From Actinomycetota bacterium (lineage in GTDB: Bacteria > Actinomycetota > Acidimicrobiia > Acidimicrobiales > JAJPHE01), in the NCBI GenBank assembly GCA_027315345.1, contig DAHUYE010000036.1:1-64000 (forward strand): a DNA stretch of 64,000 nt. The letters run 5' to 3'. The position numbers and the translations under genes were made by a program. Below are positions 1-3,989 of this stretch, piece after piece. Every line of letters starts with the position of its first letter. Positions within the stretch are counted from its first letter, which is position 1. The notes below the pieces were generated by a model. It was not told the origin of the DNA, did not search any database, and saw nothing but the letters and a program-made list of their open reading frames with translations.

Positions 1-40
1 CTGCGATCCCGCAGGAGGAAGCATCCGCCCAGCGCCGTTG

Positions 41-132
41 ATTATGCCGAGTCCGAATGAGGCCTCACCTCGCTGGCCAGGGCCAACCCGGCAGACGCCG
101 GCCTACTCGGCATAATCCGCTACTCGGCATAA
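41..132. repeat. Three copies of TTATGCCGAGTA-like 12-mer at a probable element end
   Basis: The 12-mer TTATGCCGAGTA occurs twice on the minus strand (121-132 and 103-114, separated by 6 nt), and a near copy (TTATGCCGAGTC) lies inverted on the plus strand at 42-53. Direct and inverted copies of one short motif at a boundary are typical of tyrosine-recombinase or transposase binding sites. The relaxase reading frame next door loses family similarity at about 160-165, just outside these repeats. I therefore read this as the terminus of an element that extends beyond the left edge. Identity of the element is unknown. Confidence 0.5.
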
Positions 133-467
133 GCCCATAAATCCCGAATTCGGAATAAGGGGGACGAGACCACGATCTCCATCCCCGGCCGGGCTGTCTT
201 GACCAGGCGTTCCCCGGTGGTGGGATCGAGTGCCCCGCCCTCGGCGAATAGCGCCTCGTACTGCGCCGCGCCCACGGCGCCGGACAGGCCCAGGGCCATC
301 GCCCCGGAGCCGCCCCACACCAGGGGCGTCTCGCCGTGGCTGGCGAAGTAGCGCATTGACACGGAGGCCTCGTCGAGTTCTGGGTCGCCGAGGCGGGGGG
401 CGTCCAGGCCGACATTGCGGCGGTGGTAGCGGGTCGAGTCCCGTCCCATCATGGCCATGCGAGCCAT
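120..467 (-). pseudogene. Truncated MobF/TrwC-type relaxase, N-terminal fragment
   Basis: The ATG at 467 has a clear AGGAGG seven nt upstream. The 115-residue product resembles the start of TrwC/MobF conjugative relaxases: a YF...GETPLVWGG stretch, an ALGLSGAV segment, then a PTTGERLV stretch leading into a VVSSP motif. In the family that last motif continues into KSVS and a large relaxase plus helicase body. Here the frame runs into unrelated residues and stops at 120, beside recombinase-like repeats. So the gene appears interrupted by a second element, leaving only the N-terminus and no catalytic histidines. It marks the flanking DNA as the remains of a conjugative or mobilizable element. 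Confidence 0.6.
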
Positions 468-784
468 CCCGACACCTCCTCTCGTTCCGTGACGATCCCG
501 GCCGGGCAACCCCCGGAGGGGTTGCAACCCTGGTTCCGATTCTTGGGTCTTTCAGGGGTTATGCCAGGTCGATGTGACCGCCGTAAAGGTTTATTTCGTG
601 GGCGGTATTTGGCGGCAGATGACGGTATGGAATGGTCAGTTCAACGAGGTAACAAGCGAGCTGGACGTTGTGGAGGGTGCCGGGGTTCGCGGTGCTCCTC
701 GTCACGATCCCGCTCCCGCCAGGAATGGCCCGTAGGACCGCGCAGATCGGCGCGTGAGCGGAGGGCTGCGGAGAAACGGGCCCG

Positions 785-827
785 TGTCCGAAGAACCGGG
801 ACGCAGCCCGATGTCCGAAGAACGGGG
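785..827. repeat. Direct repeat TGTCCGAAGAAC(C/G)GGG, two copies
   Basis: TGTCCGAAGAACCGGG at 785-800 recurs as TGTCCGAAGAACGGGG at 812-827, a 27-nt period with 15 of 16 positions identical. On the other strand each copy reads CCC(C/G)GTTCTTCGGACA, and a TGTC precedes the first. Repeated transposase-binding motifs near a TG...CA terminus are characteristic of some insertion sequences, notably IS21-type ends. No transposase is present, so at best this is a remnant end. Confidence 0.35.
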
Positions 828-949
828 ACAGCGGGGTTTCCACCGCGAGACAGGGCCGGTCCCGGGAGCCTAGTAAGGCAAATGAACGCTTGGGCCAGCC
901 GTTGTGACGGCTCCCGTCCCAGTTGGGCCGGGGTTCTGGGCCGCGGACC

Positions 950-1009
950 TGTGACGGTCACTTGTGACGGTAGTTGTGACGGTAGTTGTGACGGTAGTTG
1001 TGACGGTTC
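950..1009. repeat. TGTGACGGT iteron array (5 copies)
   Basis: TGTGACGGT occurs at 950-958, 963-971, 975-983, 987-995 and 999-1007. The last four copies are at an exact 12-bp period (unit TTGTGACGGTAG). A partial copy TGTGACGG lies at 903-910. A helical-period (about 11-12 bp) array just upstream of an excisionase/integrase pair suggests binding sites for an element-encoded replication, excision or regulatory protein. The Val-Thr repeat peptide read through it is an artefact of translating the array. Confidence 0.6.
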
Positions 1010-1164
1010 GCTATGGCACAACTTCAGCGACGGGGGGCGGCGCCCCATGCAAAAGCTCGTCCAGGTCGGGGACCACTGGACGAGCCCTTCAGGTTCGGTC
1101 CCCCTATCAAGTTCTCGTCCCGAACGGCCCGGCCGTCGGGCGGAGTGTCAAAGGAGCAACCGAG

Positions 1165-1515
1165 ATGTCAAACCTTCCCGCACCCTCTTCGGAGCACGAG
1201 CCACCCCTGACCATCGAGGAGGCGGCCGCCTTCTTGAACGTCACCGAGCGCTGGGTCCGCCGGGCGGTCTACGAGTCCCGCCTGCCCTACTACAAGATCG
1301 GACACAATGTCCGGCTCAGCCTTGATGACCTGAGGGCCTACCTGGCCTCGACGAGAGTGGAAGCGCCCGCCCCCGCCCCGATGGTGTCCAGGGCGCCTCT
1401 TCCCTTGCGCCCGTCTGGCCTCCCTGGAGGGACGCGTCGCCCGGGGGATCGATGGACGCGGCGACCGGGGGAGCCTCCCGCCGGGCGCCCGGGCTCAGGC
1501 GGGAGGTCTGGTTGA
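1165..1515 (+). CDS. Excisionase-like MerR/HTH_17 DNA-binding protein
   Basis: ATG at 1165 follows AAGGAG (1151-1156) with 8-nt spacing. The 116-aa product has an N-terminal winged-helix domain of the excisionase/HTH_17 type at about residues 14-55: an LTIEEAAAFLNV helix, a WVRRAVYESRLPYYKIG recognition region, then an RLSLDDLRAYLAS segment. These proteins bind attachment-site DNA and steer integrase toward excision, or act as small regulators. The C-terminal half is Pro/Arg/Gly-rich and without a recognisable fold, so the stop may lie in degenerate sequence. It lies 121 nt before the integrase, the usual xis-int order. Confidence 0.75.
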   Translation: MSNLPAPSSEHEPPLTIEEAAAFLNVTERWVRRAVYESRLPYYKIGHNVRLSLDDLRAYLASTRVEAPAPAPMVSRAPLPLRPSGLPGGTRRPGDRWTRRPGEPPAGRPGSGGRSG

Positions 1516-1636
1516 TACCCCTCTGCGCCGTGCCGCCCATCGCCCAGGGCATCGCCAGGCGCTGGCTGTAACAAGGCATCGTTAGCCTCGGGACCCAGCA
1601 AGAAGGCGGGGCTCCGGCCCCGTACCGGGAGGACGC

Positions 1637-2746
1637 ATGGCTCATGTCGAGAAGCGGGGGGCAAACCGCTGGCGGGCTCGTTTCCGGGATCCGGACGGGC
1701 GGGAACGATCCAGGACCTTCAGCCGGCGGATCGACGCCGAGCGCTGGTTGGCGACTGTATCGACAGACATCCTCAGAGGCGCCTACATCGACCCAAGCGC
1801 CGGCCAGGTCACCTTCGGCCGGTATGCGCTCGAGTGGCAGACGATTCAGGTTCACCGACCGAGCACGGAACTGCTCGTCGACCGGCACCTCCGGAACCAC
1901 CTGCTTCCCTTCTTTGAGCACAGGCCAATAGCCGCCGTGCGGCCGACCGACATCCAAGGATGGGTCAAGGATCGCTCGACCGTGCTGGGGCCCCGGACAG
2001 TCGAGCTTGCCTACCGCTACCTGGCCGCCATCTTCAGGGCCGCCGTCGAGGACAGGCTGATCGCGTCCAGCCCTTGCCGTGGCATCAAGCTGCCCCGTGC
2101 CGCGACGGAGGAGATCGTCCCTCTCCAGACTAAACAGGTCCTCGCCCTGGCCGCAGCCGTCCCGGATCGCTACCGGGCCATGGTCTTGTTCGCGGCCGGT
2201 ACCGGGGTGCGCCAGGGAGAGGCCTTCGGCCTGAGCGTCCCCCGGCTGGACATGCTCCGCCGGACAGTGCGGATCGACCAACAGATCGTCTGGCTGCCGC
2301 GAACTGGGGCGCAGCTCGGCCCGCCCAAGACCAAGGCCAGCAACCGGACCATCCCGCTGCCCGAAGTCACCATTGATGCGCTGGCCGCGCACCTGGCTGC
2401 CTTTCCGGCGGCGGGGGAGTGGGACCTCGTCTTCACCAACCCCCGTGGTGAGCCCATCTCTCGCAGCACCTTCGGCGACATCTGGCGGGGGGCTGTGCGC
2501 CGGGCTGGCGCGCCGGAGGGAACCGGTTTCCATGATCTCCGCCATTACTACGCCAGTCTCCTGATCCGTCACGGGGAGTCGGTCAAAGTGGTTCAGGCCC
2601 GCCTCGGGCACGCCAGCGCCACCGAGACGCTGGACACCTACAGCCACCTTTGGCCCGACGCCGAGGACCGGACCCGGCTGGCCGTGGACAGCGTCCTTGG
2701 CACCACCCCCGTCGAGGCAGCTGACGGGGACGGCGTCGGCGGGTGA
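1637..2746 (+). CDS. int: Tyrosine-recombinase phage-type integrase
   Basis: This 369-aa protein catalyses site-specific integration or excision of the element. Residues about 1-60 form an Arg-rich arm-binding region. Residues about 65-150 are the SAM-like core-binding domain. The catalytic domain starts near 165, with the first Arg in GTGVRQGE, a Lys in the PPKTKASNRTIPL strand, the HDLRH box near 302 and the LGHA...TLDTYSH box carrying the nucleophilic Tyr. All catalytic residues are present. Its GTGA overlap with the next gene implies co-translation with the downstream unknown pair. The nearest candidate chromosomal target is the rnpB 3' end, about 860 nt downstream. Confidence 0.93.
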   Translation: MAHVEKRGANRWRARFRDPDGRERSRTFSRRIDAERWLATVSTDILRGAYIDPSAGQVTFGRYALEWQTIQVHRPSTELLVDRHLRNHLLPFFEHRPIAAVRPTDIQGWVKDRSTVLGPRTVELAYRYLAAIFRAAVEDRLIASSPCRGIKLPRAATEEIVPLQTKQVLALAAAVPDRYRAMVLFAAGTGVRQGEAFGLSVPRLDMLRRTVRIDQQIVWLPRTGAQLGPPKTKASNRTIPLPEVTIDALAAHLAAFPAAGEWDLVFTNPRGEPISRSTFGDIWRGAVRRAGAPEGTGFHDLRHYYASLLIRHGESVKVVQARLGHASATETLDTYSHLWPDAEDRTRLAVDSVLGTTPVEAADGDGVGG

Positions 2747-3186
2747 GCTGTGGCCGGGAGGATCAGCGACCGAGGCTGCGGGACGAGCCGGCTCCCGACG
2801 ACGACGCCGTTGTGATCCGGGGCGGCACTGACTCGTTGGCCAAGCTGTGGGCTCACGGCCTGCGCACCCAGCGGGCGTGGTGCCTCGACGGCGTGCCCAT
2901 CTTCGGGATATCCGTCTTTGCCGTCATGGACGACATCGGGCCCGGCTCGGCCAGGGCGATCCTGGGCCGGCGCCTGGTGACCTACCGGTCCGTTCATGTG
3001 ACGAGCGTGGGTCGGCTGCTGGAGTCCGGCCGCTTGCTCCTGGCCACCGGCCGGCGGCCTCACTTCACCGTGGTGCTCCCGTCCGACGACGACGAGGCGC
3101 TGAGCGGGCTGCTTGATGTCCTCGGCCCGGTGCAGGACAATCAGGAGTACCTGGCGGCCCGGTGGGGCCGGGGGAGCGAACGGTGA
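2743..3186 (+). CDS. Integrase-linked hypothetical protein A
   Basis: The GTG start overlaps the integrase stop (GTGA), and its own stop overlaps the next GTG, so the three genes are translationally coupled. The 147-aa product has an Asp-rich N-terminus, a DAVVIRGGTDS motif, a DGVPIFGISVFAVMDDIG core, a long middle helix and a RPHFTVVLPSDDDE segment near residue 105. I cannot name a family. From memory, proteins with the RGG and GISVF signatures recur next to integrases in actinobacteria, always paired with a smaller acidic protein, and have no assigned function. No membrane segment or signal peptide is visible. A later start around the RGG motif cannot be excluded. Confidence 0.65.
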   Translation: MSCGREDQRPRLRDEPAPDDDAVVIRGGTDSLAKLWAHGLRTQRAWCLDGVPIFGISVFAVMDDIGPGSARAILGRRLVTYRSVHVTSVGRLLESGRLLLATGRRPHFTVVLPSDDDEALSGLLDVLGPVQDNQEYLAARWGRGSER

Positions 3187-3455
3187 GCATGACCCTGGAC
3201 ATAGGCGCCGATCTCAACGACGAGGACGAGACCGGCTTCGTCTGGACCTTCCTGGACGAGGCAGTAGACCCGTCCGTCATCGTGCCGGGTGCCATCATCC
3301 TGGCCGGAGACCCGGACGACCCCGCCGTGGTTCAGGTGGTGGATCTGGAGGAGCGGCCGGCCGGGACGATCGTCCATCTGCGCCCGCTCCCGGGGCGCTT
3401 CGAGGACTACGAGACCTTCGTCCGTCGCCTCCAGCCCTCCCCCGAGCGGGCCTGA
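3183..3455 (+). CDS. Integrase-linked hypothetical protein B, acidic partner
   Basis: The GTG at 3183 overlaps the preceding stop (GTGA), which fixes the start. The 90-aa product is very acidic: a DLNDEDETGFVWTFLDEA stretch, a VIVPGAIILAGD strand and a VVDLEERPAGTIVHLRPLPG segment ending in a short helix. The alternating hydrophobic strands suggest a small beta-rich fold. The pairing with protein A, their sizes and tight coupling resemble a toxin-antitoxin or element-maintenance pair, but nothing in either sequence proves this. Function is unknown. Confidence 0.65.
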   Translation: MSMTLDIGADLNDEDETGFVWTFLDEAVDPSVIVPGAIILAGDPDDPAVVQVVDLEERPAGTIVHLRPLPGRFEDYETFVRRLQPSPERA

Positions 3456-3540
3456 TTCCAGCTCCCGGAGACGGTCACGCTCAGTGACCGCCGGCGCCCC
3501 CGAGGGGCCGAGTGTCGTCGCTGGATCCAACTTTGTGAAA

Positions 3541-3564
3541 AATTCCCGCGGCCTGTACGCGGCC
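3541..3564 (-). terminator. Weak hairpin with T-tract downstream of rnpB
   Basis: Read on the minus strand, a 5-bp CCGCG/CGCGG stem (plus-strand arms 3546-3550 and 3558-3562) is followed by GGGAATTTTT. It lies about 50 nt beyond the rnpB 3' end, where the RNA's terminator would be expected. The stem is short. Confidence 0.3.
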
Positions 3565-3610
3565 TGGGGTTGCTTGCAAAAGTATAAACGCCCTGGTCAG
3601 AGGCCATAAA

Positions 3611-3989
<379 letters not shown>

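Follow-up and report, generated by a model that had tools for sequence, protein, structure and literature searches.

Operator and centromere arrays are built from direct repeats of 10–12 bp, the usual plasmid iterons are longer than 12 bp, excisionases often bind short direct repeats, and the clt loci of Streptomyces-type AICEs hold repeats that are read by the FtsK-like TraB and measure 8 bp, compared with a 12-bp period at the locus described here. In the oriT of R388, one inverted repeat is occupied by the relaxase and others by TrwA and IHF (PMC4814116), and direct and inverted repeats are described as abundant in oriT regions in a second source (PMC4853378). For the 63 MOBF relaxases of a Mycolicibacterium plasmid survey, blastn recovered no known oriT (PMC8190616). 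The T4SS-type actinobacterial ICEs with TrwC (Ghinet et al. 2011; PMC3218068) share with the present element an integrase, a small HTH gene, TrwC, and the 3′ end of an RNA gene as the site of integration; they differ from it in targeting a tRNA gene, where this element targets rnpB, and in that the element here is incomplete. The window, meaning the whole stretch of 64,000 nucleotides that was analysed, corresponds to G000:C24:1-64000, C24 being the window's contig.

The 12-bp-period array and its surroundings

Five exact copies of TGTGACGGT on the + strand, with starts at 950, 963, 975, 987, and 999 and spacings of 13, 12, 12, and 12 bp, form an array (950..1007) with the unit TGTGACGGTAGT; the first-pass annotation had counted five copies with four at an exact 12-bp spacing, and those four are copies 2–5. 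A sixth, imperfect copy (TGTGACGGC) lies apart from the others at 903..911 on the same strand. The array is confirmed as a real feature: it was the top of the 61 rows that TRF gave for the window (950-1007, period 12, 4.8 copies, score 100), and its lag-12 self-identity reached 37/46, compared with 31 in the remainder of the window; none of 60 simulated 64-kb sequences exceeded 30. Another repeat, near 34.2 kb, also attains 37, at lags 15 and 18. Single TGTGACGGT sites at no more than one mismatch are not enriched in the window (18 found, 13.5 expected), so the feature that exceeds chance is their clustering. The array is closed by an inverted half-unit (996..1023), which reads AGTTGTG, 14 nt, and CACAACT. 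As a single strand, the array stretch of the window does not fold significantly (z = −0.08), the values for three sister loci described below being −3.36 (C22), −1.99 (C30), and −1.63 (C50). Because the window begins at position 1 of C24, the array lies 950 bp from a contig end. Its placement between a relaxase remnant and xis, as annotated at first pass, agrees with a TrwC fragment at 120-467 on the − strand and an HTH_17 gene that begins at 1165.

This HTH_17 (excisionase-like) gene (1165..1515, + strand) is followed by a tyrosine integrase gene (1637..2746, + strand) and by rnpB, which specifies a bacterial class A RNase P RNA and is the putative integration target (3612..3983, − strand). 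A 27-bp attachment core (3611..3637, + strand), situated at the 3′ end of this gene, is identical to C63:3265-3291 (L119), a recurrence with an E-value of about 1e-6. Two CGCGGCCT repeats, 11 bp apart (3547..3565, + strand; starts 3547 and 3558), are candidate arm-type sites of the integrase, and on the C63 side three more stand at +137, +147, and +157 from the core, 10 bp apart and in the same orientation; only these clusters count as evidence, since the 8-mer GCGGCCTG is common by itself, with 15 occurrences over both strands of the window. With the core and the arm-like repeats in hand, the earlier reading of an iteron-like array in an integrated element is supported, and we read the arrangement as an element that probably entered the 3′ end of rnpB by means of its own tyrosine integrase, with C63:1-3291 as its other end. 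The parts of the element that were seen are C63:1-3291 and window 1-3637, and the middle is joined to neither of them in the assembly. To our knowledge, the 3′ end of rnpB is an unusual integration target.

Two palindromic sites, TGTCCGAAGAACNGGGACR, start at 785 and 812, 27 bp apart (785..830, + strand). The palindrome family TGTCCGANNANCNGGGACA is present at exactly this spacing on five contigs (the window's own, C30, C50, C39, and C52), and on C39 the palindromes are situated inside an open frame (L053 632-1201) that gave only sub-threshold winged-helix matches.

The interrupted relaxase gene and a candidate oriT

The frame at 120..467 (− strand) encodes the N-terminus of a TrwC (MOBF) relaxase; it matches the TrwC profile at positions 6-83 or 16-83 of 286 and stops at 120. 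An insertion end with TACTCGGCATAA repeats (1..132) cuts the gene at about 132, so that the "relaxase remnant" of the first-pass annotation, correct as to the truncated frame, is rather an interrupted gene at a contig end, the contig ending inside the insertion. Ends with TACTCGGCATAA were found in or beside relaxase genes on eight contigs (C24, C39, C40, C88, C34, C96, C75, and C61), some of which may represent the two sides of one insertion. The N-terminal relaxase halves on C24, C39, and C88 all stop at LFRIRD, and CCGAATTCGG stands at the break point in both the window and C88. The copy of the insertion on C88 (L055 7739-13968), about 6.2 kb long, encodes IstA, IstB, and three tyrosine recombinases, a composition that seems to recall the recombinase-trio (RIT) elements. 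C61 and the right part of C88 carry the same relaxase subfamily; because insertion copies intervene, neither firmly links the window to the C-terminus of its relaxase.

The two relaxase parts on C88 look like different subfamilies, for which reason this contig is perhaps a misassembly or a recombinant between insertion copies; it was used only for reading the insertion. TrwC relaxase genes or pieces of them (PF08751) occur at 19 places in the 3.8-Mb genome itself, many of them at contig ends.

Upstream of the relaxase start, the hairpin GCAACCCC-CGGA-GGGGTTGC (506..525, + strand) is a candidate for the relaxase-binding stem of an oriT, and it runs into a degraded nic-like motif, TTGCAACCCTGGTT (522..535, + strand), of which the consensus among relatives is TTGCAATCGTGTTC. 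The match in the window has four mismatches to TTGCAATCGTGTTC, no better than the best shuffles, and is named for its place. With the N-terminus of the window's relaxase as query, matches were obtained in 32 of 397 genomes of the order, its own included, at 44 places; 41 of these lie outside its own genome, and loci were read for 29 of the 41 (L082-L110). The motif was counted in the 28 loci with at least 100 nt upstream, L094 having been dropped with 20 nt; L087 and L101 offered only 246 and 266 nt, and the 28 are not independent, as L088/L089 and L103/L104 have identical upstream sequences over the stretch inspected. Within 400 nt of the match start, 26 of the 28 outside loci contain TTGCAATCGTGTTC at no more than three mismatches (none in nine, one in nine, two in five, and three in three, the last a level that the best shuffles attain), and by the same limits it was not found at L100 and L109. 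The motif is intact in C22, C50, and C30. A perfect stem of at least five pairs ending at the motif was present at 25 of the 26 outside loci and in the window, compared with a shuffled rate of 5%, a count that omits L100 and L109, both without the motif. When the four loci of the genome itself are included, the figure is 26/30: L085 is without a perfect stem, C22 and C50 have an imperfect stem only, and C30 is cut by a contig end.

The hairpin and TTGCAATCGTGTTC upstream of this TrwC relaxase subfamily are likely to represent an oriT. The likeness to the MOBF oriT of R388, the origin used by TrwC, lies in a TrwC-family relaxase, a hairpin directly before a conserved motif, and repeats in the same intergenic region, and the R388 nic sequence reads differently from TTGCAATCGTGTTC. 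The core of a MOBF oriT is a hairpin followed by a nic motif next to the relaxase; the array differs in being neither hairpin nor motif, and it is not the oriT core, since hairpin and motif adjoin the relaxase elsewhere (506-535), with the hairpin kept and the motif degraded. A literature search with 12-letter pieces of TTGCAATCGTGTTC returned nothing related by title. A useful by-product of the analysis is thus a testable candidate for the oriT on which a group of TrwC-type relaxases would act.

Sister loci in the same genome

An array of this type precedes an HTH_17 gene at three further loci of the genome (C30, C22, and C50), and a TrwC relaxase adjoins it at two of the three, the C30 contig ending before its relaxase. 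The main array of each of the four loci consists of uniform units, which are of a GAC type (TGTGACGGT) in C24 and C30 and of a GCC type (TGTGCCGGT) in C22 and C50; the main array of C50 has two units only. The arrays of C24 and C30 align over 47 bp at 98% identity, and blastn left their flanks otherwise unaligned. Further 12-bp clusters are present at the sister loci (TGTCCCAGGTTC; TTGTGCCGGTAGTTGTACCGG; TTCCCCAATTCC in C22), and C30, C22, and C50 each hold several clusters of direct repeats separated by a short A-run. At 4/4 loci, a partial inverted unit stands behind the last units, its letters differing and its complementarity kept over 7 bases in C24, 8 in C30, 10 in C22, and 8 in C50. Its pairing partner is the last unit in C24 and the penultimate one in C30, C22, and C50, and the match was attained by 16 (C24), 13 (C30), 1 (C22), and 7 (C50) of 2000 shuffled flanks.

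In C22, C30, and C50 the final units are followed by TGCGTATGACTACCGG, which resembles the nic site of R388. It was rejected as a nic site, being private to those three places: the pattern GTTCGN{0,4}TGCGTATGACTA occurred in 1/298 genomes of the order, the genome itself, and only at these positions, in contrast to the hairpin and TTGCAATCGTGTTC that 26 of the 28 homologous relaxase loci have in common.

Beyond the four loci, the array was not recovered. The two-unit pattern TTGTNMCGGTNNTTGTNMCGGT was found at 10 places, on C22, C24, C30, and C50, and was absent from the 396 other genomes among the 397 of the order, its reversed control giving three matches in other genomes; the exact unit pair was present in 1/59 genomes, again its own. 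No plasmid or phage sequence was matched by window 1-1700 in blastn. The array search of viral_contigs gave one match (L027), which looks like a coding repeat, and a degenerate TTCG-ended pattern gave none there; the search of genome_contigs gave five, all over open frames of at least 100 residues with four-residue repeats, a criterion that, used alone, would also count the array of the window. A literature search for two array units returned nothing related by title. The check proposed at first pass, a search for the same array in other integrated elements, was borne out by the three sister loci and failed in the other genomes searched; the evidence for conservation of the array thus comes from four related loci within a single genome. 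Weaker matches on C41 of the same genome were dropped, as they look like a repetitive gene, and the C22 region weakly matches C95 and C7 (E about 1e-4) outside the array.

Possible functions of the array

The array looks functional, and it is of a known general kind, ordinary on its own. The reading that we favour, to which we give not quite an even chance, is that of an operator-like docking locus with multiple sites for a predicted DNA-binding protein encoded by the element. Such a locus would occupy the control region of the rnpB-integrated element between two halves, a mobilisation half (oriT, relaxase) read leftwards and a recombination half (HTH_17, integrase) read rightwards. Several copies of the protein would sit next to one another on the direct 12-bp units, the terminal inverted half-unit would fix the edge of the complex, and the most likely effect would be to regulate the two divergent operons or to partition the circle after excision; protein, binding, and effect are what we infer. 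Operator and centromere arrays resemble the locus in their short tandem direct repeats of uniform units, and the locus differs from them in its closing inverted half-unit and in that no partition genes were recognised. Neither window 400-1700 nor L019 8900-10682 yielded a sigma-70-like promoter, a negative that means little in a genome of 70% G+C. The array is not needed for transfer in general, since a strong 12-bp array is lacking from the 1.5 kb read in most of the relatives that combine a close relaxase with the oriT motif.

Possible, though doubtful in our estimation, is a wider claim, by which the region would be an undescribed type of transfer control region. It would combine a new MOBF nic type (hairpin and TTGCAATCGTGTTC), spread across many genera of the order, with an iteron-like array confined to one lineage and closed by an inverted half-unit, and the binder of the array would define a compatibility group (GAC versus GCC) among related elements in one genome. 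Several related elements with two array types in one genome provide a natural system for asking how DNA-binding proteins are kept apart.

It is somewhat unlikely that the array instead belongs to oriT as an accessory segment, occupied by a relaxosome protein while the relaxase nicks at the hairpin and TTGCAATCGTGTTC beside its own gene. Array and oriT candidate share one intergenic region, and precedent comes from R388, with relaxase, TrwA, and IHF on separate repeats in the account cited above (PMC4814116), and from the general richness of oriT regions in repeats noted in the second source (PMC4853378); the array, however, lies about 415 bp beyond the motif. Repeats lie past the motif at the motif-bearing loci L102 (3.6 copies of an 11-bp unit, score 80) and, with 10-bp units, L099 (score 40) and L093 (score 35), whereas the stronger 12-bp arrays outside the genome (scores 47-61, other units) belong to L100 and L109, the two loci without the motif, and the other 12-bp rows, at L095, L097, and L099, score just 37-42. 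An 11-bp array was also recorded by TRF upstream of the relaxase at L107 (score 52). With TRF rows in several relatives, short repeats are not rare in this region; the unit of the window is nonetheless private.

It is unlikely that the excised circle replicates from the array as an iteron-type origin, with the initiator encoded in the unassembled part of the element. The array does consist, as plasmid iteron arrays do, of tandem direct repeats at fixed spacing with a unit that is uniform within the main array, and the several repeat clusters of C30, C22, and C50, with their A-runs, would suit an origin. Its 12-bp units, however, fall below the usual size of plasmid iterons, and the accompanying signals differ from those of an origin: nothing in the region of the window comes within one mismatch of a DnaA box (in C30 one site does, with a single mismatch), and AT-rich sequence is absent from the array, the AT content of the region peaking (48% in 50 nt) at about 543-668, past the oriT candidate and away from the array. 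No initiator gene was recognised nearby, and none among the proteins scanned with Pfam from window 1-3637 and C63:1-3291, between which the middle of the element is missing. The reading keeps its share of probability because the element is partly unassembled.

Binding of the array by the HTH_17 protein, as an excisionase, or by the integrase is quite improbable. The HTH_17 product had been put forward at first pass as a possible binder; its gene is immediately downstream of the array and excisionases often target short direct repeats, but comparison of the four loci does not support the proposal, array type being unmatched by HTH_17 type there. C24 and C30 share their units and differ both in HTH_17 (32/70 identical) and in recombinase class, which is tyrosine in C24 and serine in C30 and C22 (Resolvase and Recombinase domains), whereas C30 and C22 have nearly the same HTH_17 (71/86 identical) and different units. 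The site type does not change with the HTH_17 type among these loci, and because array type follows neither HTH_17 nor recombinase class, HTH_17 is not supported as the binder. As for the integrase, clusters of CGCGGCCT stand at both att ends and the array at neither; TGTGACGGT, which would have to serve as the arm-type site, does not occur at the C63 end and is 2.6 kb away from the core.

That the array is a product of chance or a coding repeat without function is extremely improbable, given that it stands in the same place at four loci, each time with a terminal inverted half-unit, that its repeat signal exceeds simulation, and that the sister loci differ in ways unlike those of a gene. Open frames do span the array in all four loci, with the forward reading (V[TP]VV)n; that of the window reads (VTVV)n in frame with HTH_17, and the five genome_contigs matches and the viral match to the array patterns resemble coding repeats. 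In the alignments of C22, C50, and C30, however, most gap lengths are not divisible by three, the phase changes, and the mismatches are distributed over the three codon positions (48, 50, and 36 for C22/C30; 12, 13, and 16 for C22/C50; 15, 7, and 15 for C50/C30), on which ground we take the array not to be a gene; the stretch does not behave as coding sequence. A Pfam scan of the C30 frame over the array gave no match. The frames across the array run to 397 residues in C30 and 404 in C22 and are partly alike, and the HTH_17 gene has start signals of its own, AAGGAG and the ATG at 1165.
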